A stretch of DNA of 64,000 nucleotides from Deltaproteobacteria bacterium ADurb.Bin207. Its GTDB lineage: Bacteria > Myxococcota_A > Polyangia > Polyangiales > Polyangiaceae. The notes below the pieces were generated by a model. That model did not search any database. It was not told where the DNA came from and was given only the letters and a program-made list of their open reading frames with translations. The stretch lies in assembly GCA_002070115.1 (NCBI GenBank), contig MWCO01000008.1, positions 62,001 through 126,000 of the forward strand. Direction: 5' to 3'. Below are positions 32,604-62,600 of the stretch, piece by piece. Both the position numbers and the translations under genes were made by a program. Numbering within the stretch: position 1 is the first letter of the stretch; each line of letters opens with the position of its first letter.

Positions 32604-32752
32604 GGTGGAAGTGAAATGTAGCCACGGCTTTTCACTCAGCAAGGAGGGCGGCAAACGATTTTGGATTTGTTACGAATCCGAATGTTTGCAGACCGTCGCT
32701 AAGAAAGTTGGCCGCATCACCATTTCACGACGATAACGCAGAGGGTATGCCC

Positions 32753-33148
32753 ATGACGTCCTGCCACAACCTGTTGTTTTTTGCACTTTTCGTGTTGGGT
32801 TGCGGCCGCCCGGACCAGCCAATCCAAAAACCATGCGCCACGGATGCCGAATGCAGTCCCGGTACGGCGTGCCGCATCGCTCGCTGCCGAAAGATCTGCA
32901 GTACGACTCTATGGGTGGGACAGACGGTGCAAGTGCGTGGACTTCAAGGACCACGCACCGCCACGATCTCAGATTGCGAACCCGCTCCGGCTCCGGCCGC
33001 AAGTTCATCCTCCACCGCCGCGGCGTCGACCCCCACCCCCGGCCCACGAAAGCTTTGGGTCCGATACGACTCCGGGTTGGAAGAGCAGGTCGAACTCAAG
33101 CGGGTGGTCCTCGACGGCTCCCCTGCCAGTCGACCGGATGGCCGATAA
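32753..33148 (+). CDS. Predicted small lipoprotein, Cys-rich with Ala/Ser/Pro linker
   Basis: 131 residues. Signal peptide with lipobox (VLGC) near residue 16, then a short module with six cysteines (CATDAECSPGTACRIARCRKIC) that recalls the Dickkopf-like 'C..dsEC..g..C' motif frequent in myxobacterial lipoproteins. A Pro/Ala/Ser linker and a small beta domain follow (GQTVQVRGLQGP; LWVRYDSGLEEQVELKRV). The ATG at 32753 lies seven bases after GAGGG; the ATG at 32747 is too close to it. The stop is 7 bases from the convergent NifH-like gene. Confidence 0.65.
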   Translation: MTSCHNLLFFALFVLGCGRPDQPIQKPCATDAECSPGTACRIARCRKICSTTLWVGQTVQVRGLQGPRTATISDCEPAPAPAASSSSTAAASTPTPGPRKLWVRYDSGLEEQVELKRVVLDGSPASRPDGR

Positions 33149-33155
33149 CGAACGT

Positions 33156-33968
33156 TCATCCGCGAATGAACTCAAAAAAGGCATCGTCATCGAGAGGCGT
33201 GGGAAGCGGTACCGTCTCGGGGACTATCTTTTGGATTTTTTCGGCCAATTCAGCGAAAACGAGCGCCGTGGGAGACGCGGGGGCATACTCGACGATTGTC
33301 TTTCGCTCTCGCTCCGCGGCGATGATGAGAGGGTCACGAGGAATGAACGCCAGGTTCGAAGTTCCGAGTCGTTGCGCGAACCGTTCGATGAGGCCGCGAT
33401 CGGCACTCGGCGTACGAAGATTGGCTACCAAACCCGCCAACACGACACCGTTTTCATGGTACGTGTGAATCGCCTTGGAAATATTGTTGGCGGCAAATAG
33501 CGCCATGGGCTCCTCAGACAAGACAATGAGGACTTTTTGAGCGAATCCCTGGCGCAAAGGAGCCGCAAACCCCCCGCAAACCACATCGCCGAGCACATCG
33601 AAAACCACCGTATCATAGTCACCTTGCTCCATGACCTCGAGTTCATCGAGCAATTCCAGCGTCCGCGCCACACCCCTTCCCCCACACCCCACGCCAGGAG
33701 CCGGACCTCCAGCCTCACAACAATGGACCCCATGCCTTCCAATTCGAAGAAATGCCTCGGTCGACGATAAATTGGGATTCGCCACCAACGCATCGAGAAC
33801 CGTCGTCATCGACTGGTCCGCATCCATCAGACGAATGGCGGAATCGTGTTTCGGATCGCAGCCGATATGAAGAACCCGTTTTCCATGGCTCGCGAAATGG
33901 GCACTGAGAGAGGTTGCGACGACAGACTTTCCAATGCCGCCTTTTCCGTATATGGCGATGCGTTCCAT
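33156..33968 (-). CDS. Orphan NifH/BchL/BchX-type iron protein
   Basis: 270 residues, close to the usual NifH length of about 290. Iron proteins of this family are ATP-dependent reductases that pass electrons from a 4Fe-4S cluster at the dimer interface to a partner such as nitrogenase or protochlorophyllide reductase. Visible motifs are the P-loop GKGGIGKS (8-15), [11 protein letters not shown] (37-47), GVGCGGRGV with Cys95 and [12 protein letters not shown] with Cys131. Both cluster ligands and the [13 protein letters not shown] helix are kept. No NifD/K, BchN/B or BchY/Z partner lies in the window. The ATG at 33968 gives the P-loop its normal place; the longer open frame upstream overlaps trpS and its spacer. 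Confidence 0.9.
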
Positions 33969-34157: not shown

Positions 34158-35159
34158 ATGACCAAGCACCGAATTTTTTCCGGTATCCAACCGTCGGGCG
34201 TGCCGACCCTCGGCAATTACCTGGGCGCCATTCGCCATTGGGTGGGCCTTCAAGACGAATATGACTGTCTGTATTGTGTGGTGGACTGGCATGCGATCAC
34301 GCAGTGGCAGAGCCCGGAGTCGCTGTTGACCCAAACGCGGGAAATGGCCGCTGCGCTGCTCGCTTGTGGCGTCGATCCCACACGTTCGATTTTGTTCCAT
34401 CAATCCGCCGTGACCGCGCATTTGCGGTTGGCGTGGATATTCGAATGTGTGGCCCGTATCGGCTGGCTCAATCGAATGACGCAATTCAAAGATAAAGTAG
34501 GGAAAAACCGCGATAGCGCTTCCGCGGGTCTGTATACCTACCCGGTGCTGATGGCCGCGGATGTGTTGGCATACAAAGCCACCCACGTACCCGTTGGCGA
34601 TGACCAGCGGCAACATCTCGAATTGGCCAACGATATCGCCCAAAAGTTCAACCATGATTACGGCGTCGAGTTTTTCCCACCCATCGTGCCCATGGTCCTG
34701 GGCCCCGCCGCACGGGTCATGAGCTTGCGCGATGGCACAAAAAAAATGAGTAAATCCGACTCCTCGGACCAATCACGCATCAATCTCACCGACGACGCGG
34801 ACACGATTGCAGCCAAAATTCGTCGGGCAAAAACCGACTCGGAACCTTTGCCCTCCGAGCCCGAGGGATTGGAAAACCGGCCGGAAGCAAGGAATCTCGT
34901 GGGGATCTATGCCGCGCTGGCCGAATGCGAGCCAAAGGAGGTTTTGACCCAACATGGGGGCAGCGGGTTTGGCGCTTTCAAAGAAGCGCTGGCCGAATTG
35001 GTCATCGATAAACTCGCCCCGATTGCCGAAAGCATGCGACAACACCTCGCCGATCCATCGCAAATCGACGATCAATTGCGTCAAGGGGCCGTCCGAGCCG
35101 CCGCCCTGGCCGACCCTATCGTGACAGAAGCAGAGAAATTAGTTGGATTCCTGCGATGA
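34158..35159 (+). CDS. trpS: Tryptophanyl-tRNA synthetase
   Basis: 333 residues, the normal TrpS length. Class I motifs are present: [16 protein letters not shown] (HIGH region) and KKMSKSD near 195. [16 protein letters not shown] and the C-terminal helical region are typical. The ATG at 34158 matches the usual start ([14 protein letters not shown]); the open frame upstream overlaps the divergent NifH-like gene and is not coding. The stop is 6 bases from the convergent glycosidase gene. Confidence 0.97.
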
Positions 35160-37050: not shown

Positions 37051-37071
37051 CTTTACGTGTATCGATTTACC

Positions 37072-40000
37072 ATGCTTGTTGACGATCCTCTCTGGTACAA
37101 GGACGCCATCATCTATCATCTTCATGTCAAAGGTTTTTTTGACAGTCAGGGGGATGGGTTTGGCGATTTTCCGGGTCTTTCGGCGAAGCTCGACTATATC
37201 CAAGAGCTTGGGGCGACGGCGATCTGGCTTCTTCCCTTTTATCCTTCCCCCCTTCGGGACGATGGCTATGACATAGCAGATTACTTCGATGTTCATCCTC
37301 GTTACGGGACGCTGCGGGACTTCAAGGCATTTGTCCGTGCGGCCCATCGTCGTGGGTTGCGTGTCATTACGGAATTGGTCATCAACCATACGTCGGACAG
37401 GCATCCTTGGTTTTTGGACGCGCGACAACCGGGGTCATTGCGCCGGGATTATTATGTATGGAGCGACCGGGATGATCGGCTGGGGGAGGTACGGATCATT
37501 TTCAAGGATACGGAGCAAAGCAATTGGGCGTGGGATCCGGTGGCGGGGCAGTATTATTGGCATCGATTTTTCTCCCATCAACCGGATCTCAACCACAACA
37601 ATCCGAAAGTCGTGCGGGCCGTTCTCAAAGTGCTTCGATTCTGGTTGGATATGGGGGTCGACGGGCTTCGACTCGATGCGATTCCGTATTTATGCGTGCG
37701 TGAAGGAACGAATTGCGAAAACCTGCCGGAAACCCACGCGGTGATTCGTCAGATCCGGGCCGAGGTCGATGCCCATTATTCCAATCGTATGCTGCTGGCC
37801 GAGGCCAATCAATGGCCCGAGGACGTGATTCACTACTTCGGGAATGCGGATGAATGCCATATGGCCTTTCACTTTCCCCTCATGCCACGAATCTACCTGG
37901 CCGTGGCCCAGGGGGACCGCGCCCCCATCACAGATATCTTGCGCCAGACTCCCGCCATCCCCGACTCTTGCCAATGGGCCCTTTTTCTGCGCAATCACGA
38001 CGAACTGACGTTGGAAATGGTGACGGAACAAGAGCGGGCAGCCATGGTAGCCCATTACGCCAAAGACCCCACCATGGTCTTGAACCTTGGGATTCGTCGT
38101 CGATTGGCTCCTCTCATGGATAACGATCGACGCAAAATCGAGCTATTGCATGCTCTATTGCTATCGATGCCCGGTACGCCCATCCTTTATTATGGGGATG
38201 AGTTGGGCATGGGAGACAACGTATATATTCGTGATCGGGACGGGGTTCGTACGCCGATGCAATGGAGTTCGGACAGAAATGCAGGCTTTTCCCGAGCCGA
38301 CCCCCAACAGCTTTACCTGCCAGTGATATCGGATCCGATTTACGGCTATCCCGCGGTGAATGTCGAAGCGATGGAGCGAACGCCAACCTCCTTGCTCCAT
38401 TGGATGCGGGCGATCATCGCCGTCCGTAGGCGTCATCGAGCCTTCGGGCGGGGTGGTTTGCACCTGCTTTATCCATCCAATCACCATATCCTGGCCTATC
38501 TTCGGCACCACGACGAAGAACTGCTGTTATGCGTGTTCAATCTTTCTGCTTCAGCCCAGGCGGTCGAATTGGACCTTCATGAGCATGTGGGGCGGTATCC
38601 GGTGGAATTGCTCGGAGGTTCCACCTTCCCTCGCATTGGGCAACTGCCGTATCTGCTCACCTTACCCGCCTATGGCTACTATTGGTTTCGGCTTTCCTCG
38701 CCGCATCAACCGCCTCTGCCCATGCCCGACAGACCCGATTTACCCTTTTTGGTCATCGGAAGGCAGGCCCGGGTGGACGACGTCCTCGGCCCTGTTTTCC
38801 ATGATATCCTTGGGGATTTTCTTCATCGACAACGCTGGTTTCAGGCCAAGGGGAGCGTTATCCTGGCAATCCAAGCTACCCTCGATCGAGTGTGGGAAAC
38901 AGGACCCGGCGAATGGCTCTGGGCGATTGTCCGTGTCGAAGTGCAGAACCAGGCTCCCCAACGATATTCATTACCTCTCGCCGTATTGTGGGACGAGCAA
39001 GCGGAATCGGTGAAACAATCGGCGCCCGCCCGAATTCTGGCCAAAATTCGCAGAGGTCCAAGAATCGGAGTGGTTTGTGATGCCTACCTGGACCCGCAAT
39101 TTGCCTTGCAAATGTCGAGTGCTTTCGATCGAGCCGAGCATCTTACCCTCGCGGGGGGCACACTCCGCTTCCTTGCCACTGCAGCTTACCAATCACCCGT
39201 CCACCTGCAGCCAGCGCAGGTCGAGCCTCTCGATGTCGAACAAAGCCATACCTCCGTACGCCTCGGCTCCTTGCAAATCTACAAGAGTTACCGTAGGTTA
39301 CAGCGACGTGGCCGCAGTGAGGTGGAAATTGGCAGGTATCTGACGGAATCCTCTCCTTTTCCCAACACCGCACCGGTTCATGGTCATGTGGAGCTTTCAG
39401 ATATCGATGGGGAAAACCAGACCATCGGGATTCTGGTGGGCTACATTCCCAATGAAGGAGACGCCTGGAGTTATACGTCGAATTATCTCGAACACTATGT
39501 GGAAGCGCGATTGGCCGACGAAGAGGGTCATGGCAAACCGACCGAGCGGCATGGGGCCTACGCGCCATTCGCCAAAAACCTTGGGAAAAGGACGGGACAA
39601 CTGCATCTGGCCTTGTCTCGACCCACGGCGGATCCCGCGTTTTCGCCTCGACCCATGACCGGCGAGGACGTTTTTCGTTGGGCTTCTTTCGTGCGGCAGG
39701 ATGCGATTCGAACCGTGGATACGGTGGAGGCATCGCTACATCGTCTTGACGAAAGCGCGCTGCCCTATGCACAACGTTTGGTGGAAAGGAAGCGGGAGCT
39801 GTTGGAGCGTCTCGAACGGGAGGCGCCGCATCCCTGTGAAGGCCTATGTTGTCGTTTTCATGGGGATTTTCACCTTGGCCAGGTTCTCCTTTCCCGGGGG
39901 GATGCTTATATCATCGACTTCGAGGGGGAGATGGCTCGACCCGAGGGAACTCTCGAAGAGAAGCATTCACCGCTGCGCGACGTGGCAGGAATGCTTCGCT

Positions 40001-40329
40001 CCTTCAATTATGCGGCCATCGTGGCATTGGCAGAGATATCGGCAAGTCTCGGACATGCGGTGCAACTCGAAGGGATTGTCCGAGCGTGGGAGCAAGAGGC
40101 CAGGCAATCGTATTTGGAGGGTTATCGAGCCGTGACCCGGGGCCGCGGGTTGGTGCCTGACAACCAAGAGGCATTTTCCTATCTTCTCGAATTGTTTTTG
40201 TTCGAAAAAGCTCTTTATGAAATCAATTACGAGCTGAACAGTCGTCCTCGCTGGGTTCTGGCACCGCTTCGCGGTGTGCTCGCCCTGCTTGACCATCCTG
40301 GCTTTCCCCAAGAGCCATCTTCGAAATGA
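37072..40329 (+). CDS. treS: Trehalose synthase-maltokinase fusion
   Basis: 1085 residues. The N-terminal GH13 domain interconverts maltose and trehalose. It has WYKDAIIYHLHVKGFFDS at the start, the nucleophile Asp202 in GLRLDAIPY, acid Glu244 in AEANQWPED and Asp310 in RNHDE. The C-terminal half (about 570-1085) is a maltokinase of the aminoglycoside-phosphotransferase fold, with HGDFHLGQ (930-937) and IDFEGE. The fusion would feed maltose-1-phosphate to a GlgE-type pathway; no GlgE is in the window. The ATG at 37072 is preferred, but a GTG at 37057 is in frame and no good ribosome site precedes either. Its stop overlaps otsB by ATGA. Confidence 0.95.
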   Translation: MLVDDPLWYKDAIIYHLHVKGFFDSQGDGFGDFPGLSAKLDYIQELGATAIWLLPFYPSPLRDDGYDIADYFDVHPRYGTLRDFKAFVRAAHRRGLRVITELVINHTSDRHPWFLDARQPGSLRRDYYVWSDRDDRLGEVRIIFKDTEQSNWAWDPVAGQYYWHRFFSHQPDLNHNNPKVVRAVLKVLRFWLDMGVDGLRLDAIPYLCVREGTNCENLPETHAVIRQIRAEVDAHYSNRMLLAEANQWPEDVIHYFGNADECHMAFHFPLMPRIYLAVAQGDRAPITDILRQTPAIPDSCQWALFLRNHDELTLEMVTEQERAAMVAHYAKDPTMVLNLGIRRRLAPLMDNDRRKIELLHALLLSMPGTPILYYGDELGMGDNVYIRDRDGVRTPMQWSSDRNAGFSRADPQQLYLPVISDPIYGYPAVNVEAMERTPTSLLHWMRAIIAVRRRHRAFGRGGLHLLYPSNHHILAYLRHHDEELLLCVFNLSASAQAVELDLHEHVGRYPVELLGGSTFPRIGQLPYLLTLPAYGYYWFRLSSPHQPPLPMPDRPDLPFLVIGRQARVDDVLGPVFHDILGDFLHRQRWFQAKGSVILAIQATLDRVWETGPGEWLWAIVRVEVQNQAPQRYSLPLAVLWDEQAESVKQSAPARILAKIRRGPRIGVVCDAYLDPQFALQMSSAFDRAEHLTLAGGTLRFLATAAYQSPVHLQPAQVEPLDVEQSHTSVRLGSLQIYKSYRRLQRRGRSEVEIGRYLTESSPFPNTAPVHGHVELSDIDGENQTIGILVGYIPNEGDAWSYTSNYLEHYVEARLADEEGHGKPTERHGAYAPFAKNLGKRTGQLHLALSRPTADPAFSPRPMTGEDVFRWASFVRQDAIRTVDTVEASLHRLDESALPYAQRLVERKRELLERLEREAPHPCEGLCCRFHGDFHLGQVLLSRGDAYIIDFEGEMARPEGTLEEKHSPLRDVAGMLRSFNYAAIVALAEISASLGHAVQLEGIVRAWEQEARQSYLEGYRAVTRGRGLVPDNQEAFSYLLELFLFEKALYEINYELNSRPRWVLAPLRGVLALLDHPGFPQEPSSK

Positions 40330-41123
40330 TTGCAGGATTACCTACGTTTTGGACCATGCTAGATGCCAGTCCGCATCGTCTTCTGGCTCTGGACTACGAT
40401 GGCACCTTGGCGCCTTTTCGGGTGGACCGTAGGCAAGCGTTTCCCTTGCCTGGCGTGGTGCAAGCGCTCGAGGCCCTTGCCTCGCGAACCGACACGAAAC
40501 TGGCGATCATCTCGGGCCGTCCGTTGCGGGATTTGAAGAAGCTGTTGCGGCTTTCGGAGGGTGCGGGCCTCACCTGGGTGGGAAGCCATGGCTTCGAGGG
40601 GCAGCGAGCCGATGGGGAAACCTGGACGCGGCGTCTTACGGCGATGCAATCGGAAAACCTGCTGAGCGCACGACGGGCCGTGGAAGCTCTTGGTCATGGC
40701 GCCAGGCTGGAGAACAAGCCTTCGGCGCTTGCTTTTCACACGCGAGGCATGGAGTCCGAAGAGGCAAAAAGCCTAGAAAAAACAGTATATTCCGTCTGGA
40801 CGGCTCTTGCGGATACCGCCGGACTTCGTATTCATGCTTTCGATGGAGGCGTGGAAATCCGCGTCACGACCGCCGACAAAGGACAAGCCCTCAAGGAGTG
40901 GGTGAATCAGCAGGCGGCAGGAGCTTTCGTGGTCTATGTCGGCGATGACAGGACTGACGAAGACGCTTTCGAGGTCGCTCAGGGGTTTGGGGGTATTGGG
41001 ATTCACGTGGGTTATGGGGAGACCTGCGCCTTGGGCACACTAGCTGATTGTGAAGCGGTATTGGCCTGGCTACAACGTTGGGCGAGGATGCCAACCTATG
41101 GAAAGGTTGGGGGAATTACATGA
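40326..41123 (+). CDS. otsB: Trehalose-6-phosphate phosphatase
   Basis: 265 residues of the HAD superfamily. The nucleophile motif LDYDGTLAP has Asp23 and Asp25. Motif II is IISGRPL, and the C-terminal YVGDDRTDEDAF supplies the magnesium-binding aspartates. It removes phosphate from trehalose-6-phosphate, the product of OtsA. Start and the preceding treS stop overlap as ATGA (40326-40329), and its own stop overlaps the otsA start in the same way (41120-41123). Both junctions point to translational coupling. Confidence 0.95.
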   Translation: MIAGLPTFWTMLDASPHRLLALDYDGTLAPFRVDRRQAFPLPGVVQALEALASRTDTKLAIISGRPLRDLKKLLRLSEGAGLTWVGSHGFEGQRADGETWTRRLTAMQSENLLSARRAVEALGHGARLENKPSALAFHTRGMESEEAKSLEKTVYSVWTALADTAGLRIHAFDGGVEIRVTTADKGQALKEWVNQQAAGAFVVYVGDDRTDEDAFEVAQGFGGIGIHVGYGETCALGTLADCEAVLAWLQRWARMPTYGKVGGIT

Positions 41124-42565
41124 ATGGCTCGCGGGATTTTCGACGATTGGTGGTGGTATCGAATCGACTTCCGATCGTATTGGGGCGAGATGAGAAGGGA
41201 CAATGGGCGGCGCGTCCGGGAGAAGGAGGATTGGTGACGGCGTTGGCGCCGGTTCTTCGCAATCGTGGAGGCGTGTGGATTGGTTGGCCGGGCACGGATG
41301 ATAGGGAGGCGCTGGACAAGGTGAAGGCAACATCCGCGCAAGCGGGTTATCAATTGCTTCCCGTGCCGCTGACGGCGGAGGACGAAAAAGGGTATTATCA
41401 TGGTTTTTCCAATGAAACGATTTGGCCATTATTTCATGACCTGGTGGGTCATTGTCGGTTCGAACCGGCTCATTGGCGAAAGTATCAGGAGGTCAACCAG
41501 CGATTTGCCCGAACGGTGTTGGAGACTACCACCCAAGAGGATTACGTCTGGGTCCAGGACTATCATTTGATGTGTTTGGGAAGTATGCTTCGAGAAAAGG
41601 GGGTGAAGCGTCGCCTCGGGTTTTTCTTGCATATCCCTTTTCCCGCGGTGGATATTTTTTCCAAATTACCATGGCGCAAGCAGATCCTCGAAGCCCTGTT
41701 GGCCTACGATCTCATTGGGTTTCAAACCGCCCGAGACCGTCGCAATTTCATCCAATGCGTGCGCAGCCTCCTTCAGGGAGTCCAACACGTTGGGCGAGGA
41801 TACCTCGGAGCGATTCGGGTGGGAGAAAGACAGGTTCTCGTGGGTCACTTCCCCATCGGAATCGATGCCAAACGCTTTGCGTCGGAAGCGGCTTCGGCTC
41901 CGGTGGCTGAGCAGGCCTGGTATATTCATGAATTGCTTCCCAAAAGACAGATTGTGCTCGGCATCGATCGACTCGACTATACAAAAGGAATTCCCGAACG
42001 ATTACGTGCGGTTGGCAACGCGCTGGAGCGTTTTCCGGAGTTGCATCGGCAGCTTACGTTCGTGCAGGTGGTGGTGCCGAGCCGGGTCAACGTGGGGGAT
42101 TATCGTCAACAACGCAGAACGATCGAGCAACTCGTAGGTAAAATCAATGGAAAATTCACGACCGCGGGCTGGACTCCCGTCCACTATATCTATCGTGCCC
42201 TTTCCTGGCATGAATTACTCGCCTATTACCGCACGAGTGAGATCGCACTTCTGACACCTCTCAAAGACGGCATGAACCTCATTGCCAAAGAGTATTGTGT
42301 TTGTAGTGTCGAGTCAGGCGTGCTCATTCTCAGTGAATTTGCCGGCGCTGCCCGGCAACTGCAGGGAGCCTTGTTGGTCAATCCCAACGACATCGAAGCC
42401 ACCGCGGATGCCCTTCGGCAAGCGTTTCACATGCCTGCCGCCGAACGAAAGCGTCGCATTCGAAAGCTTCAGCGGGAAGTGGATCGGCATGACGTGTTTT
42501 GGTGGGTCGATTTATTCCTGAACGCCGCGTTTGGACGTCGCCTTGCCGATTTTCCGCTTGCATGA
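41120..42565 (+). CDS. otsA: Trehalose-6-phosphate synthase
   Basis: 481 residues, a GT20 glycosyltransferase that joins UDP-glucose (or another NDP-glucose) and glucose-6-phosphate. Visible motifs are the N-terminal VVVSNRLP, then WIGWPGT, VQDYHLM, FLHIPFP, GIDRLDYTKGIPERLRA and the C-terminal LLTPLKDGMNLIAKEY. The ATG at 41120 follows GGGGGA closely and overlaps the otsB stop by ATGA. The frame is open to 41078, inside otsB. Together with otsB it completes the OtsAB route to trehalose, alongside TreS. Confidence 0.97.
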   Translation: MNGSRDFRRLVVVSNRLPIVLGRDEKGQWAARPGEGGLVTALAPVLRNRGGVWIGWPGTDDREALDKVKATSAQAGYQLLPVPLTAEDEKGYYHGFSNETIWPLFHDLVGHCRFEPAHWRKYQEVNQRFARTVLETTTQEDYVWVQDYHLMCLGSMLREKGVKRRLGFFLHIPFPAVDIFSKLPWRKQILEALLAYDLIGFQTARDRRNFIQCVRSLLQGVQHVGRGYLGAIRVGERQVLVGHFPIGIDAKRFASEAASAPVAEQAWYIHELLPKRQIVLGIDRLDYTKGIPERLRAVGNALERFPELHRQLTFVQVVVPSRVNVGDYRQQRRTIEQLVGKINGKFTTAGWTPVHYIYRALSWHELLAYYRTSEIALLTPLKDGMNLIAKEYCVCSVESGVLILSEFAGAARQLQGALLVNPNDIEATADALRQAFHMPAAERKRRIRKLQREVDRHDVFWWVDLFLNAAFGRRLADFPLA

Positions 42566-44602: not shown

Positions 44603-46396
44603 TCACGCTTGCATGGGGGAGTGCCTGGTGCCTCCCTGTTCCGCTACCATTTTCGCGGTGGAGGTGAGCACGACGCGATGCTTTTTCGCCGGTGCGAGCA
44701 ACCATCGAGCCATGGCAACGATGGCCACCACAAAAGCAATCATCGTGGTGAGTTGGGTGAGATCCGCGGCCACGCCGAGAGCGTTTTTCGCCATGAGACT
44801 CGCGTTATCGATGATGAGCAAGAGGATCGCGGTCACAAACACGTTCGCAATGGATAGGGGCAAAAGCATCCGCCAGCACATTTTCATGAGTTGGTCATAG
44901 CGGAAGCGCGGCAAGGTCCAGCGCACCACCACTTGTAGCCAGGCGAAAGCCGCCACTTTGAGGAAGAAAGCGACGACCTGCAAGGCCACCACCGAGCCAT
45001 GGGTCATGGCGTGCTTGAGCAACACCGCATCGCCAATGGCGATGGTCAAGCCATCCCGATGCAAAAAGGGAAGATTCCAGCCGCCAAAAAACAGAGTGAT
45101 CATCACGGCCGAGGAGGTGACCACCTCGATGTACTCCGAGAAAAAGTACATGCCGAACTTCATGCTCGAGTATTCGGTGAAGTAGCCAAGGATTTCACTC
45201 TCTCCTTCCGGCAAATCGAAAGGTATCCGTTTGGTCTCCGCGGTCGCGGCAATGAAGAACAGGAAAAAAGCTAGCGGTTGGACAAACACGCCCCACGCGT
45301 TGTTTCCTTGCCACCGCACCATGTCATCGAGCCGGAACGTCGAATAGATCATGAGCAACCCGATCAACGTCATGCCAAGGGTGATTTCATAGGACACGAG
45401 CTGACCGGCGGCGCGAAGGGCACCGAGAAGGGAATACTTGTTATCGCTTGCCCATCCACCGATGGCAGCGCCCAAAATCCCGATGCCGGACACCGCAAAG
45501 ATGAAGAGGATGCCGATGTCTAAGTTAGCGATTTGCATAGGGATTCCTGCCTCGGCGCAAACTCCGTCGCGCGATACCACAGGCAGAATTTGTGTCCACT
45601 GGATGCCGCCTTCCGCGTTTTTGGCAAAGCACAATACATCGCCAAAAGGTACGACCGCCATGACGACCAACGGTGGGAACATACCGAGCATGGGCCCAAT
45701 CGAATGAAGGAGGCGGTCGCCCCGTTTGGGCATGAAGTCCTCCTTCCAAATCATTTTGATGCCGTCGGCCATGGTGTGAAGCAAGCCGATCACCCGAAGC
45801 TTGAAGCCTTCCTTCGGGACTTTCGAAGCGGCTAGCAGGCCGCAAGCGGCGATGAGCAACGCCAACACCGAGGGCGCTGCAAGAAACAACGCAGGCTTGA
45901 TCGAAGCCGCCCATTCGGTGCCGCGCAGGGCATACCGAAGCACGAATACCGCGATATGAGCGACCAATCCGAGATAGAAGACACGTCGAGGGTCGCGCAC
46001 TTGCTCAGCAAGAAACGCTTCCAAAGCATTGCTGGAGCCGCGACGAACGGCCCAGGTCGTCAGCATCGCGAGTACGGTCCAGGTGATGAAAACGGAAAGC
46101 TCCGCGGTGAGCAAGATGCGTTCCGTCATCCGAAGCGCACCAGCGACGGTATCGGGAAACGACGTAAGCCAGCCCCAGGCACCGATACCAGCGGCGGCCA
46201 GCAGGGCAGGACCCGCAAACATGCCTCGGGCAAGGGTTGGCGGAAGAAAGAATCGCGCTCGATTGGGTCCGATGCGGTCTTGCATCATCGAACTCATTCG
46301 ACGGTCATTCCAGGTCAATGCCCCGGCGAAGGCCAGGCAGAACACCAGGATGAACGCGATCTTAAGGAGCGTGAAGATCAGCTCGACGATGGTCAT
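44603..46396 (-). CDS. nuoH: NADH-quinone oxidoreductase subunit H, enlarged
   Basis: 597 residues against about 325-350 for typical NuoH. TM1, then DRIGPNRARF (about 40-49), and later GLLHTMADGIKMIWKED (204-220), NKYSLLGALRAAGQLVSYE and GYFTEYSSMKFGMYFF, are all recognisable. Between GPNR and GLLHTMAD lie about 157 residues where E. coli has only a few. This block holds about four hydrophobic helices (near 57-79, 95-117, 138-158 and 168-190). The C-terminus also has about 75 extra residues with another helix. NuoH forms the quinone-binding chamber. The ATG at 46396 lies 10 bases after nuoG. Confidence 0.93.
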   Translation of the reverse strand: MTIVELIFTLLKIAFILVFCLAFAGALTWNDRRMSSMMQDRIGPNRARFFLPPTLARGMFAGPALLAAAGIGAWGWLTSFPDTVAGALRMTERILLTAELSVFITWTVLAMLTTWAVRRGSSNALEAFLAEQVRDPRRVFYLGLVAHIAVFVLRYALRGTEWAASIKPALFLAAPSVLALLIAACGLLAASKVPKEGFKLRVIGLLHTMADGIKMIWKEDFMPKRGDRLLHSIGPMLGMFPPLVVMAVVPFGDVLCFAKNAEGGIQWTQILPVVSRDGVCAEAGIPMQIANLDIGILFIFAVSGIGILGAAIGGWASDNKYSLLGALRAAGQLVSYEITLGMTLIGLLMIYSTFRLDDMVRWQGNNAWGVFVQPLAFFLFFIAATAETKRIPFDLPEGESEILGYFTEYSSMKFGMYFFSEYIEVVTSSAVMITLFFGGWNLPFLHRDGLTIAIGDAVLLKHAMTHGSVVALQVVAFFLKVAAFAWLQVVVRWTLPRFRYDQLMKMCWRMLLPLSIANVFVTAILLLIIDNASLMAKNALGVAADLTQLTTMIAFVVAIVAMARWLLAPAKKHRVVLTSTAKMVAEQGGTRHSPMQA

Positions 46397-46406
46397 GCTC
46401 TCGCCC

Positions 46407-48056
46407 TCAGGAATCCGTGGAGGCAGCAGCCTTATCGGCGGCTGTCTCGTTGGCATTCGCGTGATGATCGGCCGAAGCCGAGACGTTTATTTCAGGTTTG
46501 GGCAGGCAGGCTTTGGGCATTGCCTCCCGCAGCGAAGAAAGGGAATTCCAGGCCGGTTCGTGTCCCAACCCTACGCATACTTCACGAACGAACTTCCAAC
46601 CTGGCTGGCAATCGTCGGCTCCAGGATAAGCGCGTCGACTCTCCTGGGCCATGCCCTTGGCATTGACATAAATGCCGTGGGTTTCCGCCCATGAGCTAGC
46701 GGGCAAAAAAACCTCCGCATGCTCGTGAAGAGCGCCCTGCCAACCACCGATCACCACAAGAGACGTAAGTTTGTCGAGGAGCGAATCGGCGTCGGCGGGC
46801 CAGACGCTTCCCATCACGATCAGATGCTTGATGGAACCGTCTTCCACGGCCCGGGTCAGTTCTTCGATACCCTTGAGTTCCCGTTCCGCGACCGCGCGAG
46901 CCCCTGCCGTGTTGGGGTTCTTATCGACATGACGCAAGATGTCATCGCCCTGCCCTTCAGGCTTTCCGATGAGGAACCAAGCTTGAATTCCCATGGCGCG
47001 GGCGAGCGTGACGAGCGCGAAGTTATCTTCGCAATTATGTTGCGCGCTCAACACGACGGCCGATTTGTCTTTGGGCGCATTTTTGATCAGTTCGACTGCT
47101 TTTTCGATCGCCTTGGCAGCGAGTGTGTGTTTGCCGCCGACACGGATCTGAGTTGCGCGCGCGTCGTGGGTGGCGTGATAGCTGAGCATGCCTTCATCGC
47201 ACATCCAATAGCTGTTGACGCTCTCATTGTCCCGCGGACGATAGCGGTAGGCGCGTTGTGTACGCGGGTCGAAGTCGAGCCATGCATTGCAGCCTGTGGC
47301 GCATCCCTGGCAGATCGACGGTGCGGAGCGCAAAAACCAGACGCGAGCTTTGAAGCGGAAATCCTTGGTGGTCAACGCGCCGACAGGACAAACAAGTTCC
47401 GTCATGAACGTATAGGGATGATCGAGTTCTCGCCCTGGAGAGACGGTGATTTCGTTGAGGTTGCCTCGTTCTCTCACGCTCAGGACCGGGTCTTTGGCTA
47501 CTTCTTCGCAGAAGCGGACGCATCTCGTGCAAATGATGCATCGTTCGGCATCGTAGACGATGGTAGGACCGAAGGAGACGGCCTTGGGTTTGTGGATCAA
47601 TTCATCGGGCATGCGCTTGGGGGTGCGCATATGGTCGAGCCAATAATCTTGCAGTTTGCATTCACCGGCTTGGTCACATATGGGGCAATCGACGGGGTGA
47701 TTGAGCAGCAAGAATTCTTGGACGGCGTGTCGCGCGCGTTTGACGTGTTCGCTGGTGTCGCTGAGCACTTCCATATTTTCGGTGACGGGCACCTGGCACG
47801 CGGGCTGCAGTTTGGGTTTTCGTGTATTGACGTACTGCCCGGTGGTTCGGTCGAATTCGAGGACATCCAGGAGCATGGGTGGTCTGCCGGGCGGTGGAAG
47901 GATTTCCACCAAGCACATTCGGCAGTTAGCGGCGACACTCAGTCCTGGGTGCCAGCAGTAATACGGGATATCGATACCCGCGCGATAGGCGGCACGCATG
48001 ATGGTGTCACCAGCTTCGAACGGGACGTCTTTGCCATCGATCTTGAAGGTCGGCAT
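46407..48056 (-). CDS. nuoG: NADH-quinone oxidoreductase subunit G, short form with N7 site
   Basis: 549 residues, much shorter than E. coli NuoG (908). The electron-transfer half is complete. The 2Fe-2S ligands are in CWHPGLSVAANCRMC plus CQVP. The HCCC cluster spans HAVQEFLLLNHPVDC with CDQAGEC. The 4Fe-4S ligands are in CIICTRCVRFC and CPVGAL. CQGCATGC, with a further Cys about 30 residues later, matches the off-pathway cluster N7. The molybdopterin-oxidoreductase-like part is reduced to about 280 residues. The ATG at 48056 gives the expected ferredoxin start. The tail is Ala/Asp/His-rich low complexity. Confidence 0.93.
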   Translation of the reverse strand: MPTFKIDGKDVPFEAGDTIMRAAYRAGIDIPYYCWHPGLSVAANCRMCLVEILPPPGRPPMLLDVLEFDRTTGQYVNTRKPKLQPACQVPVTENMEVLSDTSEHVKRARHAVQEFLLLNHPVDCPICDQAGECKLQDYWLDHMRTPKRMPDELIHKPKAVSFGPTIVYDAERCIICTRCVRFCEEVAKDPVLSVRERGNLNEITVSPGRELDHPYTFMTELVCPVGALTTKDFRFKARVWFLRSAPSICQGCATGCNAWLDFDPRTQRAYRYRPRDNESVNSYWMCDEGMLSYHATHDARATQIRVGGKHTLAAKAIEKAVELIKNAPKDKSAVVLSAQHNCEDNFALVTLARAMGIQAWFLIGKPEGQGDDILRHVDKNPNTAGARAVAERELKGIEELTRAVEDGSIKHLIVMGSVWPADADSLLDKLTSLVVIGGWQGALHEHAEVFLPASSWAETHGIYVNAKGMAQESRRAYPGADDCQPGWKFVREVCVGLGHEPAWNSLSSLREAMPKACLPKPEINVSASADHHANANETAADKAAASTDS

Positions 48057-48084
48057 GCGTAATTCCCCAGCGTCCACGGATCGC

Positions 48085-49296
48085 TCAGTGGTCGCACTCG
48101 CCTCCGATCATATTCATCGAGCCGAAGGTTGGAATGATATCCGGAACCATCTGCCCAGTGATCAATTTGCCCAGCCCACCAACAATGGCGAAGGAAGGTG
48201 GACGTATTCGAACGCGGTACGGAGTGCCGCTTCCATCCGAGATCACGTAAAAACCAAGCTCACCATTGGCCGCTTCCGTATAGCCATACGCTTCACCTTT
48301 CGGGACTTTCAACCCCTCCATGATCATTTTGAAGTGGTGAATCGTTGCTTCGATGGTGGTGTATACTTGCGGTTTGGGAGGCAAAACGGCTGAAGCATCG
48401 TATAGGTTGATCGGTCCGTCTTTCGGCATCTGCTCGACCGCTTGACGAATGATCCGAGCGCTTTGGTGAATCTCTTCGGCACGAACCATCAACCGATCGT
48501 AGTTGTCTCCCTCGTGGCCCACGGGCACATCGAAATCGAACCGGTCATAGACGAGATACGGGTGGGCTTTTCGGATGTCGTACGGCACCCCCGTCGAGCG
48601 CAGGCAAGGTCCGGTCCATCCGAAAGCGATGGCCTCCTCGGGGCTGATGCGCGCGACTCCCATGGTTCGATCCATGAAGATGCGATTGGTTTCGAGCAAC
48701 GAAATCCCTTCATCGCTGGCGGCAAGCACTTTGTCGAGGATGGCGAGCACGTGTTCTTGGAAGGTATCCGTAGGCGGATAGGCCATACCGCCGATGCGGC
48801 AGAAGGAATGGGTGACGCGCGCTCCGGTTTCTTCTTCGAACAGGTCGTAAATCATCTCGCGAGCGCGGGTCCACCACAGAAACGGCGTAAATGCGCCGAG
48901 TTCCATGGCCATGGCCGCGTTGCAAACGAGATGATCGGCCATACGCGCCAACTCGCCGAGGATGACTCGGTAATACTGGCAACGTTCGGGAACCTGCATT
49001 CCGCTGAGCTTTTCGACGGCGAGAGCGAATCCGACGTTGTTGAGCATCGGTGAGGAGTAATTGCATCGGTCTACGTAAGGGAAAACCTGAGCCCACGTTC
49101 CGCGCTCACAGCTTTTCTCGAATCCACGATGCAGATAGCCGATTTGCACATCGGCCTTGACCACGACTTCTCCGGACAGCTCCACGGCGATGCGAACCGT
49201 CCCGTGCATGGCAGGATGGGAAGGACCCATCATCAGTTGCATGGGGTCGGATGGTAGCTCGAGAGCGTTGTCTTCCACTTGGTCGAGCGGTTCCAT
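48085..49296 (-). CDS. nuoD: NADH-quinone oxidoreductase subunit D
   Basis: 403 residues, standard for NuoD, the 49-kDa-type subunit that shapes the quinone site with NuoB. Typical segments are present: MMGPSHPAMHGTVRI, GYLHRGFEKSCE, YVDRCNYSSPMLNN, EETGARVTHSFCRIGG, GWTGPCLRSTGVPYDIRK and the C-terminal IIPTFGSMNMIGGECDH. The start overlaps the nuoC stop by one base (TGATG). The usual 'GE(x)DR' end is replaced by GECDH. Confidence 0.97.
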   Translation of the reverse strand: MEPLDQVEDNALELPSDPMQLMMGPSHPAMHGTVRIAVELSGEVVVKADVQIGYLHRGFEKSCERGTWAQVFPYVDRCNYSSPMLNNVGFALAVEKLSGMQVPERCQYYRVILGELARMADHLVCNAAMAMELGAFTPFLWWTRAREMIYDLFEEETGARVTHSFCRIGGMAYPPTDTFQEHVLAILDKVLAASDEGISLLETNRIFMDRTMGVARISPEEAIAFGWTGPCLRSTGVPYDIRKAHPYLVYDRFDFDVPVGHEGDNYDRLMVRAEEIHQSARIIRQAVEQMPKDGPINLYDASAVLPPKPQVYTTIEATIHHFKMIMEGLKVPKGEAYGYTEAANGELGFYVISDGSGTPYRVRIRPPSFAIVGGLGKLITGQMVPDIIPTFGSMNMIGGECDH

Positions 49297-57555: not shown

Positions 57556-59766
57556 TCATCCCCCTTTGATGATCGCTCCCGCCAGGCTCAACACGCCCGA
57601 CGCCTTCACGTCCACCATCGCGCTGCCCTCCACCTTCACCATCAGTCCTTTGATCGTGATGTTACCGCCCGCATCGATCACGATGCTCCCCGTTCCCACT
57701 TTCAACTCCAGTCCCTGAAGCGCACTCACCACCAGTTTGCCTTTGACCGTAATCTCGTCATTACCCTTCACTAACCGTTTTCCATTGCTGCTCACCTCCA
57801 CCTTTTCGTCCATGCTCACACGGAGTGTGCGAGCACCACTGATCTCAATCGACTCGTCCTTCGACACCTTCCGCGCACGACTTCCCTTAATGGTAACCTT
57901 CTCGTCCTTACCCACCTCTCGCGTTCGACTCCCCTTGATCGTCAGCGTCTCATCTTCCTCTACCGTCTCCGTGCGACTCCCCTTGATCGTCAGCGTTTCA
58001 TCTTTCTCCACAGTCTCCGCGCGACTCCCCTTGACCGTCAGCGTCTCATCTTTCTCTACCGTCTCCTTGCGACTCCCCTTGATCGTCAGCGTTTCATCTT
58101 TCTCTACCGTCTCCGTGCGATTGCCCTTGATCGCTAGCGTTTCATCTTTCTCTACAGTCTCCGTGCGATTGCCCCCCACCGTCGTTGTCTCGTCGTTTTT
58201 GATATCCTTTTTTCGATCGTGGTCCACGATATGGGATTCGTCATTTTTGACGTAGGTATCGAGGTTTTTCTCCGCTTGCAGATAAACCTGCTCTTCGTCT
58301 TTTTTGTCATCGAAGCGCAGTTCATTGAAGTTTTCCGCCGCGCCACCAATTGTCCTGCTCTTGAAACCGCTCTGGCTATGATTGTCCGGTAGTGCGTAGG
58401 GCGGCATGTTGTTGGCGTTGTACACACGACCGGTAACGATGGGACAATCAGGATCGCCTTCGAGATGTTCGACAATGACTTCCTGGCCGACCCTCGGAAT
58501 GTGAATAGCGCCCCAACCTGCTCCCGCCCACGCTTGCGCCACGCGAACCCAACCACTGTTGCTGCCACGACTCCGGCCCTCTCGGTCCCAGTGGAACTGC
58601 ACTTTCACGCGACCATACTCATCCGTCCATATCTCCTCACCCTCATCACCGACGACCTTTGCCGTCTGGGGACCGAAGATCTTTGGCCACGGTGTGATGG
58701 CCTGCGATCGAAACGGAGTCTTGCTCGGAATGGCGGAAAACTCGCATCGAAAATCGAAGGTATCCTCGGTATTCGACACAGACTCGTAGTCGACCACCCG
58801 CGCCTCGTACGATGCAGAAACGATCAGATATTCTTGGTTTTGATCCTCCCGCGGATGATTGGTGAGACGAAATAGCCTTCCCGGCGATAGACCCAGAACC
58901 TCCCCCTGTCCCGATACTCGCTCCTGATGTGCTTGAAAGGCTTCGACGCACACACGAGACAACCCCTCCCCTTGCATTTCGGAAGTGAGACTTCCGGGAT
59001 AATCGAATGCCTCCCTTTTGGCGTCCGCCAGTTCGTCGCGCGACACGAGTTTCGAAATCACCTCCGCCGTCGGACGCGTGAAGTCATAGCCTTTGAAAAC
59101 ACAAGCCGAGCAAGTCATCTGCCTGGACGAGGTCCACGTAGTTATATGATCTCGTTCACGACGACCTTCATGAGGAGGAAAGAACGGCACCTCTTCATAG
59201 CCAGACAAGGTTTCATGAGCGCTATAACCATCCGCCAACACCAGGGAGACTCGCCCCTCCTCATGCATAAAATAGTAATAAATTCCAACTCTTTCCATCC
59301 ATCGGCTCACGAAATCGAAGTCTGACTCCCGGTATTGCACCGTGTACTCACGCTGCTCGTAGTCACCCGAGAGGGACTCTTTGAAGTCCGTGAGGCCATG
59401 CTCGCGAAAGATCTCCGTGATGATCTCCGCAATGCTCATGTCTTTGAAGATCCGGCATCCGGAACGCATCGTCAGACGCCACAACCAAGGGCGAAGCGTA
59501 GCCTTATACAGAGCAAAGTTTCCCACCTCGCCCATGAATTGCAATTGCGCGACGGTTCCGTGAAAGTGACGCTCTCCAGCCGGTGTTTCGACAGAAACCG
59601 TCATGTCCTTTCCAATCAAGCTCGCCAGATCGATTGTGGCATCACGGCTCACCAACTCGACATCGAAACAAAACAATCTCCCCAGCTCCTCTGTTCCCGA
59701 CATGCTCCGAAGCTGAAGGGCATCCCCCAAAGGGGTCGTCACGTGAATGGGAGTGGAAAGCAACAT
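57556..59766 (-). CDS. vgrG: VgrG/TssI spike protein with C-terminal tandem repeats
   Basis: 736 residues. The N-terminal gp27-like part (about 1-350) has LSTPIHVTTPLG, SMSGTEELGRLFCFDVELVSR and YRESDFDFVSRWMERVGIYYYF. The gp5-like OB domain spans about 390-470 (IWTDEYGRVKVQFHWDREG; GWGAIHIPRVGQEVIVEHLEGDPDCPIVTGRVYNA). Residues 536-663 are eight 16-residue units that probably extend the beta-helix spike. The end is hydrophobic (SGVLSLAGAIIKGG) with no separate effector domain. It forms the puncturing tip of the type VI secretion needle. clpV lies 43 bases upstream. Confidence 0.95.
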   Translation of the reverse strand: MLLSTPIHVTTPLGDALQLRSMSGTEELGRLFCFDVELVSRDATIDLASLIGKDMTVSVETPAGERHFHGTVAQLQFMGEVGNFALYKATLRPWLWRLTMRSGCRIFKDMSIAEIITEIFREHGLTDFKESLSGDYEQREYTVQYRESDFDFVSRWMERVGIYYYFMHEEGRVSLVLADGYSAHETLSGYEEVPFFPPHEGRRERDHITTWTSSRQMTCSACVFKGYDFTRPTAEVISKLVSRDELADAKREAFDYPGSLTSEMQGEGLSRVCVEAFQAHQERVSGQGEVLGLSPGRLFRLTNHPREDQNQEYLIVSASYEARVVDYESVSNTEDTFDFRCEFSAIPSKTPFRSQAITPWPKIFGPQTAKVVGDEGEEIWTDEYGRVKVQFHWDREGRSRGSNSGWVRVAQAWAGAGWGAIHIPRVGQEVIVEHLEGDPDCPIVTGRVYNANNMPPYALPDNHSQSGFKSRTIGGAAENFNELRFDDKKDEEQVYLQAEKNLDTYVKNDESHIVDHDRKKDIKNDETTTVGGNRTETVEKDETLAIKGNRTETVEKDETLTIKGSRKETVEKDETLTVKGSRAETVEKDETLTIKGSRTETVEEDETLTIKGSRTREVGKDEKVTIKGSRARKVSKDESIEISGARTLRVSMDEKVEVSSNGKRLVKGNDEITVKGKLVVSALQGLELKVGTGSIVIDAGGNITIKGLMVKVEGSAMVDVKASGVLSLAGAIIKGG
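57778..58161 (-). repeat. Eight 48-bp tandem units within vgrG
   Basis: Each unit encodes 16 residues of the type ETVEKDETLTIKGSRT. The first five (57922-58161) are nearly identical in protein and DNA; the last three (57778-57921) are diverged but keep the period. This is a direct repeat inside a coding sequence, not a CRISPR array, because there are no unrelated spacers. Confidence 0.9.
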
Positions 59767-59809
59767 GGGACGTCCTCGCCTGAGTCAAGTTTCGACGTCG
59801 AGCGTTCGC

Positions 59810-62521
59810 TCAACCGAAGGTGTAGGTAAATTCCGAATCGGCTGCAGAAACCGTGATGGATTGGACGGGATTGCCGAGCATCATCCGCGACAGCAACTCC
59901 TGGCTGACCGTGGGAAGCATCGTGTTGGTAAGGATGGCATCGATCATACGACCGCCGCTTTCGAGTTCGGAGCACCGACTAACGATGAGGCTGACCGCGG
60001 CGTCGTCGTACACGAAGGGGATGCCATGATTTTGCTGTACGCGCTTGGCGATCCGATCGAGTTGTAGTCGCGCGATGCCGCCGATGACCTGCTCGGTGAG
60101 CGGATAATAGGGGATGACCACCAGGCGGCCCAACAACGCGGCAGGAAACACTTTCAACAGATCAGGACGAAGCGCGTTGGCAATCGCTTCACTCGTGGGA
60201 ATCAACTCCGGATCCGCACACATATTCATGATGAGGTCACTGCCCACATTGGACGTGAGCAGAATGAGCGTATTTTTGAAGTCAATCAGACGACCTTCGC
60301 CATCTTCCATCCAACCTTTGTCGAAGACCTGAAAGAAGATCTCATGCACGTCGGAGTGCGCCTTCTCCACTTCGTCGAGCAACACGACGGAGTAGGGTCT
60401 TCGACGAACGGCCTCGGTCAGGATTCCTCCTTCCCCATAGCCTACATATCCTGGTGGCGCGCCTTTGAGCGTGGAGAGCGTATGCGCTTCTTGAAACTCG
60501 CTCATGTTGATGGTGATGAGGTTTTGCTCGCCACCATAAAGCTGCTCGGCAAGCGTGAGCGCTGTCTCCGTTTTGCCCACGCCTGATGGCCCCGCCAGCA
60601 AAAACACGCCAATCGGCTTGTTCGGATTCTCGAGGCCCGCACGAGAGGTTTTGATCCTTCGCGCAATCATTTCCAAACCATGGTCCTGCCCCAACACCCG
60701 CTGTCCCATGGCTTTGGCTAGGTTGAGCACCGTTCCTATTTCATCGTGAACCATTCGGCCCACCGGAATTCCCGTCCAATCGCCCACCACCGAAGCCACG
60801 GCCTGTTCATCGACACTCGGCAGGATCAGGGGTGTTTCCTTTTGTAAATCGGCCAACTCACCTTGCAATTGCCGCAGTTTTTCGAGTTTCTCGCCCCGCT
60901 GCTCGTCCGCGACAGGCTGTGGCTCCACGCTGGACTCCAACGTGCCTGCCGTTTCATCGATCGCCTTGAATCCCTCACGCAACTGCGCGCGTAACGCCAA
61001 AATCTCATCGACAATTTTCTTCTCGGCTTTCCAACGCTCGTCGAGCTTGGCAAGGTTTTCGCGCTCCACATTCAGTTTGGCTTGCGCTTCCTGACGACGA
61101 TCTCCGATCTCGACTCCTACCGCTTGTTCTCGATCGATGATGTCCAACTCGCATTCGAGCGCCTGTATGCGTCGCGTCGAATCCTCGACCTCGGGAGGCG
61201 TGGCATGCTGGCTGATGGCCACCCGAGCGCAAGCAGTATCCAACAAACTCACGGACTTGTCGGGGAGCTGACGGGCGGGAATGTATCGGTGAGACAGACG
61301 CACGGAGGCTTCGAGCGCCTCATCGAGCACCTGTACCCTGTGATGTTTCTCGAGCATCGAAGCCATTCCCCGCATCATCAATACGGCCTTGTCTTCCGTG
61401 GGCTCGAGCACTTGCACCACCTGGAAACGACGAGTTAGCGCCGGGTCTTTTTCGATGTGTTTTTTGTATTCCGCCCATGTGGTTGCCGCAACCGTGCGCA
61501 ACGTGCCGCGCGCCAAAGCTGGCTTGAGGAGGTTGGCCGCATCACCCGTACCTGCCGCACCCCCTGCCCCAATGAGCGTATGAGCTTCATCGATGAACAG
61601 GATGATCGGCTTGGGGGAAGCCTGCACTTCCTCGATCACCTGACGCAAACGGTTTTCGAACTCCCCCTTCATGCTCGCACCCGCTTGCAACAAGCCAATG
61701 TCCAACGACAAAAGAGAGACGTCTTTCATCGCAGGAGGTACATCGCCGGCCGCAATCCGTTGCGCAAATCCTTCGACGACCGCCGTTTTTCCTACGCCCG
61801 CCTCCCCCGTCAAAATGGGATTGTTCTGCCGTCGACGCATCAGAATATCGATGATCTGCCGAATCTCATCGTCGCGACCCACGATGGGGTCCATCTCCCC
61901 TTTTCGAGCGCGCTCGGTGAGATCCACGGCATATCGAGCAAGAGCTTCTTGTTTTCCCATCGCCGCCGGCGCCATGGCTCCACTGGCCTCTCCCGGCATC
62001 GCTCCGCCTCCCACTTGAAATCCATCCGTGGCGCGCATCCGCGCTTCCGGAGAATCATCGAGGATTTTGGAGAATTCTTCCGACAAACGCTCGACTTTGA
62101 TTTTGGCAAACTCGCCCGATATTCCGAACAACACATTGCGAAGGGACGTGGTCTTCAACATTCCGAATATCAGGTGTCCCGTGCGCACTTGCGATTCTTT
62201 GAACATCAACGTGGCATAAACCCAACCACGCTCCACCGCGTCGTCGAGATGGGAAGACAGATCAGAAATCGACGACGATCCTCGAGGGAGTTTGTCCAGG
62301 GACTCGGTCATGTCCTTGGCAAGACGACTGGGGTTGAGGTCGAAAGCACGAATCAATCGATGCACATCCGAGTCTTGCAATTGCAGGATCTGGTGGAGCC
62401 AATGAACGAGTTCCACGTAAGGATTCCCTCGGATTTTGCAAAATACGGTGGCGCTCTCGATGGCCTTGTAGGCGGTGGCATTGAGCTTTCCGAATAGAGC
62501 AACACGACTGATCTCGGACAT
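59810..62521 (-). CDS. clpV: Type VI secretion ATPase ClpV (TssH)
   Basis: 903 residues of the Clp/Hsp100 class. An N-terminal substrate-binding domain (MSEISRVALFGKLNATAY) is followed by two AAA domains: the first has TGEAGVGKTA (about 238-246) and the second GPSGVGKTET (about 644-651). A coiled-coil M region lies between them. ClpV takes apart the contracted TssB/C sheath for reuse. The ATG at 62521 begins the normal N-terminus; the frame is open to 62713 but overlaps tssG. It lies between tssG and vgrG. Confidence 0.95.
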   Translation of the reverse strand: MSEISRVALFGKLNATAYKAIESATVFCKIRGNPYVELVHWLHQILQLQDSDVHRLIRAFDLNPSRLAKDMTESLDKLPRGSSSISDLSSHLDDAVERGWVYATLMFKESQVRTGHLIFGMLKTTSLRNVLFGISGEFAKIKVERLSEEFSKILDDSPEARMRATDGFQVGGGAMPGEASGAMAPAAMGKQEALARYAVDLTERARKGEMDPIVGRDDEIRQIIDILMRRRQNNPILTGEAGVGKTAVVEGFAQRIAAGDVPPAMKDVSLLSLDIGLLQAGASMKGEFENRLRQVIEEVQASPKPIILFIDEAHTLIGAGGAAGTGDAANLLKPALARGTLRTVAATTWAEYKKHIEKDPALTRRFQVVQVLEPTEDKAVLMMRGMASMLEKHHRVQVLDEALEASVRLSHRYIPARQLPDKSVSLLDTACARVAISQHATPPEVEDSTRRIQALECELDIIDREQAVGVEIGDRRQEAQAKLNVERENLAKLDERWKAEKKIVDEILALRAQLREGFKAIDETAGTLESSVEPQPVADEQRGEKLEKLRQLQGELADLQKETPLILPSVDEQAVASVVGDWTGIPVGRMVHDEIGTVLNLAKAMGQRVLGQDHGLEMIARRIKTSRAGLENPNKPIGVFLLAGPSGVGKTETALTLAEQLYGGEQNLITINMSEFQEAHTLSTLKGAPPGYVGYGEGGILTEAVRRRPYSVVLLDEVEKAHSDVHEIFFQVFDKGWMEDGEGRLIDFKNTLILLTSNVGSDLIMNMCADPELIPTSEAIANALRPDLLKVFPAALLGRLVVIPYYPLTEQVIGGIARLQLDRIAKRVQQNHGIPFVYDDAAVSLIVSRCSELESGGRMIDAILTNTMLPTVSQELLSRMMLGNPVQSITVSAADSEFTYTFG

Positions 62522-62600
62522 GGTCGACTCTTTCTTTGCTGGGCAGTCAGCCCTGTTCACGACATGAATCGGTTCCACACATTCTGTTTCAAAGATAGGA

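Follow-up and report, generated by a model that had tools for sequence, protein, structure and literature searches.

A solitary NifH-type iron protein in a Myxococcota genome and its probable partner, a distant nitrogenase-like DK pair

A gene for a NifH-type iron protein that stands between a small lipoprotein-like frame and trpS raises the question of which partner it serves and what the two would reduce together. The original prediction for this locus, made within the 64,000-nucleotide stretch of DNA analysed here (the window), described an intact protein with a P-loop, a CDPKHDS segment and cysteines at residues 95 and 131. This description was confirmed by the translation, the paralogue alignment and the profile scores, and the open reading frames on either side bore out the neighbours that had been named. 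The plus-strand translation of 33156-33968 runs into stops; the coding strand is the minus strand, from 33968 down to 33156, with the following features.

33156..33968, minus strand: NifH-type iron protein gene, 270 amino acids plus stop, ATG start (open reading frame and translation)
33924..33947, minus strand: P-loop GKGGIGKS, residues 8-15 (from the sequence; invariant in the three paralogues of the genome)
33840..33860, minus strand: switch segment CDPKHDS, residues 37-43 (from the sequence)
33684..33686, minus strand: Cys95 codon, invariant in the three paralogues of the genome
33576..33578, minus strand: Cys131 codon, VVC131GG, within [11 protein letters not shown], invariant in the three paralogues
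32708-33148: small lipoprotein-like open reading frame with a lipobox-like LGC
ORF end at 35159: trpS, divergent, with a KMSKS motif

The histidine of the CDPKHDS segment in this protein (window H) is replaced by arginine or alanine in the two paralogues of the genome. We take Cys95 and Cys131 to be the ligands of a dimer-bridging [4Fe-4S] cluster; their counterparts in MarH are Cys97 and Cys133 (PMC12552129). Elsewhere in the window lie part of a type VI secretion cluster (57556-63614, with VgrG-like, ClpB/ClpV-like ATPase and TssG-like frames), a trehalose-6-phosphate synthase-like protein with a fused maltosyltransferase/maltokinase-like protein (37057-42565), and NuoH-, NuoG- and NuoD-like genes of respiratory complex I (44603-49296). 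The 64 kb around window H contain no radical-SAM gene.

The original prediction held that the protein has no partner, and it is right that no partner gene lies beside window H; across the genome, however, this does not stand, as contig C23 carries a NifD/K-type pair that lacks an iron protein and whose phylogeny matches that of window H. The search covered a metagenome-assembled genome of 6.55 Mb in 220 contigs, 97% complete and with 4.4% contamination, in which genes could be missing or mixed. It returned three NifH-type proteins, on contigs C69, C8 (the contig of the window) and C35, and three NifD/K-type pairs, on C23, C69 and C35. The C69 genes are ordered H-D-K and the C35 D-K pair has a divergent H about 1.1 kb away, so that the C23 pair, with no H gene in the 20 kb read around it, is the only one of the three without a linked H.

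G000:C23, about 52.4-55.6 kb: D-K pair, after argS

This pair (C23-DK) and window H are on separate contigs, whose lengths put them at least about 53 kb apart. A nearby nif, bch, cfb or mar cluster with its own iron protein missing had been named as one of the findings that would overturn the idea of an orphan; a DK pair without H does exist, on C23, and to that extent the idea falls, but the pair belongs to none of these four types.

The phylogenies of the two partners agree in detail. Orthologues of window H at 71-75% identity occur in two other genomes, G379 and G380, and the H tree gives (G380,(window,G379)), with support of 100/96 for the clade and 99/93 for G379 as the nearer relative. 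The K tree gives (G380,(C23,G379)), with corresponding values of 100/97 and 99/95. Both trees thus show one three-genome clade with one branching order, and on this phylogenetic evidence the two proteins have evolved together. Both clades are nested among proteins of linked HDK operons, and the C69 and C35 H and K proteins likewise pair with the same relatives in the two trees. The matching H and DK of G379 and G380 are also on different contigs, although these are short and a spacing of about 10 kb would still be compatible with them. In a sample of 379 Myxococcota genomes, H was present in 37 of the 40 that bear K, and H without K was seen in only two further non-bch genomes. Moreover, many Elusimicrobia loci hold H and D in one open frame, which argues that the two cooperate in this family. 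The distance correlation between window H and K (r 0.78 for C23, 0.65 and 0.27 for the others) was not used for pairing: it is non-discriminating, because neither of the two linked control H proteins had its highest score with its own K. Since the genome holds three H proteins and three DK pairs, of which only C23-DK lacks an H, and since the H and K trees agree, window H is very probably the dedicated iron protein and electron donor of C23-DK, an assignment made by elimination and tree agreement.

Two observations on gene arrangement may be recorded here. Natural H-D fusion proteins appear to be common in Elusimicrobia and some Myxococcota, with single-frame H-D genes at loci L062, L063, L064, L067, L068, L070, L071, L073, L075, L081-L084, L142 and L155. 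At L058 (G380:C2), two back-to-back H genes lie between two DK pairs, and one H/DK of each apparently matches the C35 type and the C69 type of the present genome.

Window H carries the P-loop, switch segment and two [4Fe-4S] cysteines of the nitrogenase-like two-component reductases, and with the DK-type pair on C23 as its partner the system falls within this superfamily. It scores 276 bits against PF00142 and 281 bits against the NCBIfam NifH model (E 7.7e-84), a sequence match that is far beyond chance, but falls below the NifH cut-off of 394. The same holds for BchL (205 bits, cut-off 345), BchX (178 bits, cut-off 331) and CfbC (275.5 bits, cut-off 402). The earlier impression that the protein is nearer to NifH than to BchL thus holds (281 versus 205 bits). 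In the H tree, which was built without any CfbC sequence, MarH (9fmg) joins NifH with support of 99/88 and window H lies outside that branch, while BchX forms a separate, fully supported branch that also leaves window H out. CfbCD is defined by having no K subunit, and the window-H system has one on C23, so it falls outside the CfbC group as well. The system is almost certainly not a member of any characterised group, be it NifH, BchL, BchX, CfbC or MarH, which agrees with the original prediction on this point; its suggestion that the protein drives an uncharacterised reduction is probably right as well. Extra NifH-type hits in the Myxococcota genomes G212, G213, G139, G187 and G350 resemble BchL and BchX, and their BchX-like members group with Tateyamaria BchX in the H tree, in agreement with reported phototrophic Myxococcota.

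The DK pair is similarly distant from known enzymes. C23-D and C23-K match PF00148 with 98 and 148 bits but lie far below every functional NCBIfam model, including the NifD/K cut-offs; C23-K reaches 38.6 bits for BchN (cut-off 420), 32.7 for BchB (cut-off 490) and 31 for BchZ (cut-off 529). Fold predictions were made on the G379 relatives (pLDDT 92 for K and 84 for D). The K model is nearest to BchB of the dark-operative protochlorophyllide reductase, DPOR (3aeu; Z 38, rmsd 3.0 Å over 405 aligned residues). For the D model, over residues 145-620, to which its structural matches are confined, the closest folds are those of MarD, NifD and NifE (Z about 19-22). MarD is also the best PDB relative of D by sequence (E 5e-32).

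Just three cysteines proved invariant in a set of about 35 relatives, D-Cys194 (33/33), D-Cys283 (35/35) and K-Cys45 (34/34), numbered by the L048 relative; D-Cys597 is nearly conserved (32/35). K-Cys45 coincides with, or comes very close to, BchB Asp36, a cluster ligand in DPOR, as judged from aligned ranges and motif rather than from superposed coordinates. D-Cys194 is at about the position of the second P-cluster cysteine, and D-Cys283 aligns with the third P-cluster cysteine of MarD, Cys158 (PMC12552129). Of the six P-cluster cysteines of MarDK (PMC12552129), three are therefore kept in the D and K relatives and the other three are absent. No conserved cysteine occupies the FeMo-co ligand position of MarD in the D/MarD alignment, and NifB was not found in the genome. 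Taken together, the three-cysteine pattern, the lack of a FeMo-co ligand and the lack of NifB favour one bridging cluster of the 4Fe type, from which a bound organic substrate would be reduced directly; from sequence and fold models we consider it fairly likely that the predicted chemistry is that of a DPOR-like bridging [4Fe-4S] cluster and not of a P-cluster or FeMo-cofactor.

These features suggest a mechanism in which ATP hydrolysis would dock the H dimer on DK, as in the rest of the family, and pass single low-potential electrons from the H cluster to one bridging [4Fe-4S]-type cluster held by the invariant D-Cys194, D-Cys283 and K-Cys45. From there the electrons would reach an organic substrate that occupies the cavity of DK, by analogy with DPOR and COR, because there is no conserved ligand for a FeMo-co-like cluster, and a C=C or similar bond of that substrate would be reduced. 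Judging by gene context, the substrate may be an intermediate of an anaerobic pathway that employs several B12- and SPASM-type radical-SAM enzymes, and the most likely role of the system would be one reductive step toward an uncharacterised metabolite or cofactor.

That context is best seen in the relatives. Of the 379 Myxococcota genomes, 40 encode members of the K family, commonly three or four apiece, and the family is also found in many Elusimicrobia and uncultured deltaproteobacterial assemblies. In 1,193 kb around 86 H/D/K loci we counted 140 radical-SAM frames, against a background of 70 in the 6.55 Mb of the present genome, an enrichment of roughly 11-fold with the background taken from one genome. 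At least 56 of the 86 loci have one or more radical-SAM genes within 8 kb. The radical-SAM count is a lower bound, as Pfam recognised at least one such protein on C23 that had escaped the in-house model. These neighbours include B12-binding, SPASM-like and tandem double-domain proteins, and among 123 further neighbouring frames that are not radical-SAM proteins no family recurs to a comparable degree. The window-H orthologues of G379 and G380 adjoin radical-SAM genes, and two B12-radical-SAM genes adjoin C23-DK. One such protein, beside the G379 window-H orthologue, has its nearest relative in a radical-SAM protein on C60 of the present genome (49% identity), and a B12-radical-SAM protein on C123 has 53% identity to one beside G379-DK. 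The likely pathway genes are thus scattered in this genome (C23, C60, C123), which fits an iron protein standing alone beside trpS. Because its relatives usually sit among radical-SAM enzymes, a part for window H in making a metabolite or cofactor by radical-SAM-based biosynthesis is probable.

Several other loci touch on this subject. Large tandem radical-SAM clusters, some with B12-binding members, occur at L247 (G000:C25, about 53.7-69.6 kb) and L248 (G000:C9, about 31-47.4 kb), and their proteins have kin among the radical-SAM genes that adjoin HDK elsewhere in the genomes compared. L249 (G000:C21, about 24-32.5 kb), where a full-length carbamoyltransferase (PF02543/PF16861) has three B12-radical-SAM genes in its vicinity, has the look of a further biosynthetic cluster. 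A 987-aa protein with a DUF483 match lies upstream of an HDK set (L055:2158-5124) and has related frames in 13 loci. HxsC4 (NF038332) was rejected as a specific partner, being common in Myxococcota without the HDK system.

A further connection to radical-SAM proteins lies in D itself, which has extra N-terminal residues with a domain of about 100 amino acids, modelled as a helix, four strands and helices, for which searches with the whole proteins gave no Pfam match. A profile of the domain built from D alone matches a sulfotransferase-like protein beside the C69 set (E 8e-8); radical-SAM proteins in the vicinity of other sets are matched weakly.

L016:3254-4477 (G000:C69, about 25.3-26.5 kb): sulfotransferase-like protein, RNPRDxxxSxYxH motif, D-type domain C-terminal

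This protein has no Pfam or NCBIfam hit and is named from its motifs alone. An alignment of radical-SAM proteins only, compared with the D profile, gave a probability of 96%, with 0.3% and 0.1% for unrelated controls; its members were partly picked via the D profile, and the result is support and not a blind test. Carriers of the domain in this genome are the three D proteins, the C69 sulfotransferase-like protein, one of the B12-radical-SAM proteins of C23 and the radical-SAM protein of C60, with a single weak hit besides. Its presence in other genomes was only partly usable as proof of association, as D itself carries the domain and weak hits occur without K. On these profile matches, the shared domain may dock a common substrate or carrier.

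Group VI nitrogenase-like proteins, reported by Meheust et al. in 2020 (ISME J, doi 10.1038/s41396-020-0716-1), are said to occur in groundwater Elusimicrobia and to be associated with many radical-SAM genes. Elusimicrobia loci of the same H and K family carry H, D, K and many radical-SAM genes; they match the same K profile, and in the H tree they are on window H's side of a split with support of 87/96 (in a tree without group VI references). As far as the accessible accounts of group VI go, the window-H/C23-DK system probably belongs to this class, from which the present case differs by its Myxococcota branch, the clear N-terminal domain on D and the unlinked H. DPOR (BchL/BchNB) shares the ATP-driven H with a DK-type heterotetramer, the BchB fold of K and the single bridging 4Fe cluster suggested by the cysteine pattern, but the subunits here are far below its model cut-offs, a cysteine stands in place of BchB Asp36 and D lacks one of the three BchN-type cysteines. 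Profile searches found no chlorophyll-type H, D or K in the genome. The likeness to MarHDK is confined to D, closest to MarD in sequence and fold; the metal centres of MarDK are a P-cluster and an [Fe8S9C] cluster (PMC12552129), whereas half of the P-cluster cysteines and NifB are missing here. IsrBHDK (isethionate reductase) and other group IV systems also combine nitrogenase-like HDK with a radical-SAM enzyme, though one per set (PMC11423573), in contrast to the many large, B12-binding and tandem radical-SAM proteins, and the extra domain on D, seen here. Nitrogen fixation and photosynthesis were both rejected for this genome, which has no NifB, no CobN/BchH and no H or D/K beyond the three sets.

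The best-placed alternative, though unlikely, is that the same H-DK pair reduces a tetrapyrrole, as a DPOR-, COR- or CfbCD-like reductase for an uncharacterised cofactor. The structural kinship of K to DPOR subunits and the presence of BchE-like B12-radical-SAM proteins in the genome point this way, as does the label of group VI as 'putative tetrapyrrole cofactor biosynthesis' in the summary that PMC9391474 gives. Against it, neither CobN nor Mg-chelatase was found in the genome, the 25 commonest families among the 123 non-radical-SAM neighbours include two CobW and otherwise no tetrapyrrole enzyme, and BchE is not the sole model that the radical-SAM neighbours match, since they also match RiPP, lipid and HxsC4-like ones.

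It is considerably less probable that window H also, or instead, serves radical-SAM enzymes or a maturation step, supplying electrons or ATP-driven conformational work. Its separation from DK, and the radical-SAM genes beside it in G379 and G380, would suit such a role, but flavodoxin or ferredoxin is the electron source of known radical-SAM enzymes, H and K occur and diverge together, and H-D single-frame fusions exist. Small-molecule reduction by C23-DK on large nitrogenase-type clusters, as in methylthio-alkane reductase or nitrogenase, is very improbable: D does have its best sequence relative in MarD and its top fold matches in MarD, NifD and NifE, yet the cysteine pattern, the FeMo-co position, the absence of NifB and the place of window H outside the NifH and MarH branch all speak against it. 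That the window gene, isolated between housekeeping genes, is a decaying remnant left by operon loss is scarcely credible given its intact frame, its full set of motifs, the intact cognate DK pair and the existence in another genome of an orthologue, likewise unlinked, with 75% identity.

We return to window H as the ATP-dependent [4Fe-4S] iron protein of a DPOR-like reductase with C23-DK in a radical-SAM-rich pathway, a reading in which we have moderate confidence; it counts against this reading that no radical-SAM cluster surrounds the window gene in the present genome. More tentatively, it is possible that the family represents an anaerobic biosynthetic system, widespread in Myxococcota and Elusimicrobiota but so far unrecognised, in which parallel HDK sets act with B12- and SPASM-type radical-SAM enzymes and the shared domain docks one carrier-bound substrate. 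If this is true, several HDK reductases per cell would contribute to an uncharacterised metabolite or cofactor. Three features seem to be new here: an iron protein that is unlinked to the partner identified for it, the pattern of three cysteines, and the domain that D shares with other proteins. NifH-like genes of this kind call for caution before they are counted as evidence of nitrogen fixation in surveys. The group is large, often with three or four copies per genome, and to our knowledge uncharacterised, and it belongs to the superfamily of nitrogenase, in which new functional groups have repeatedly given new reduction chemistry; now that names can be put to the DK pair, to the iron protein far from it and to several linked enzymes, the activity is directly testable.
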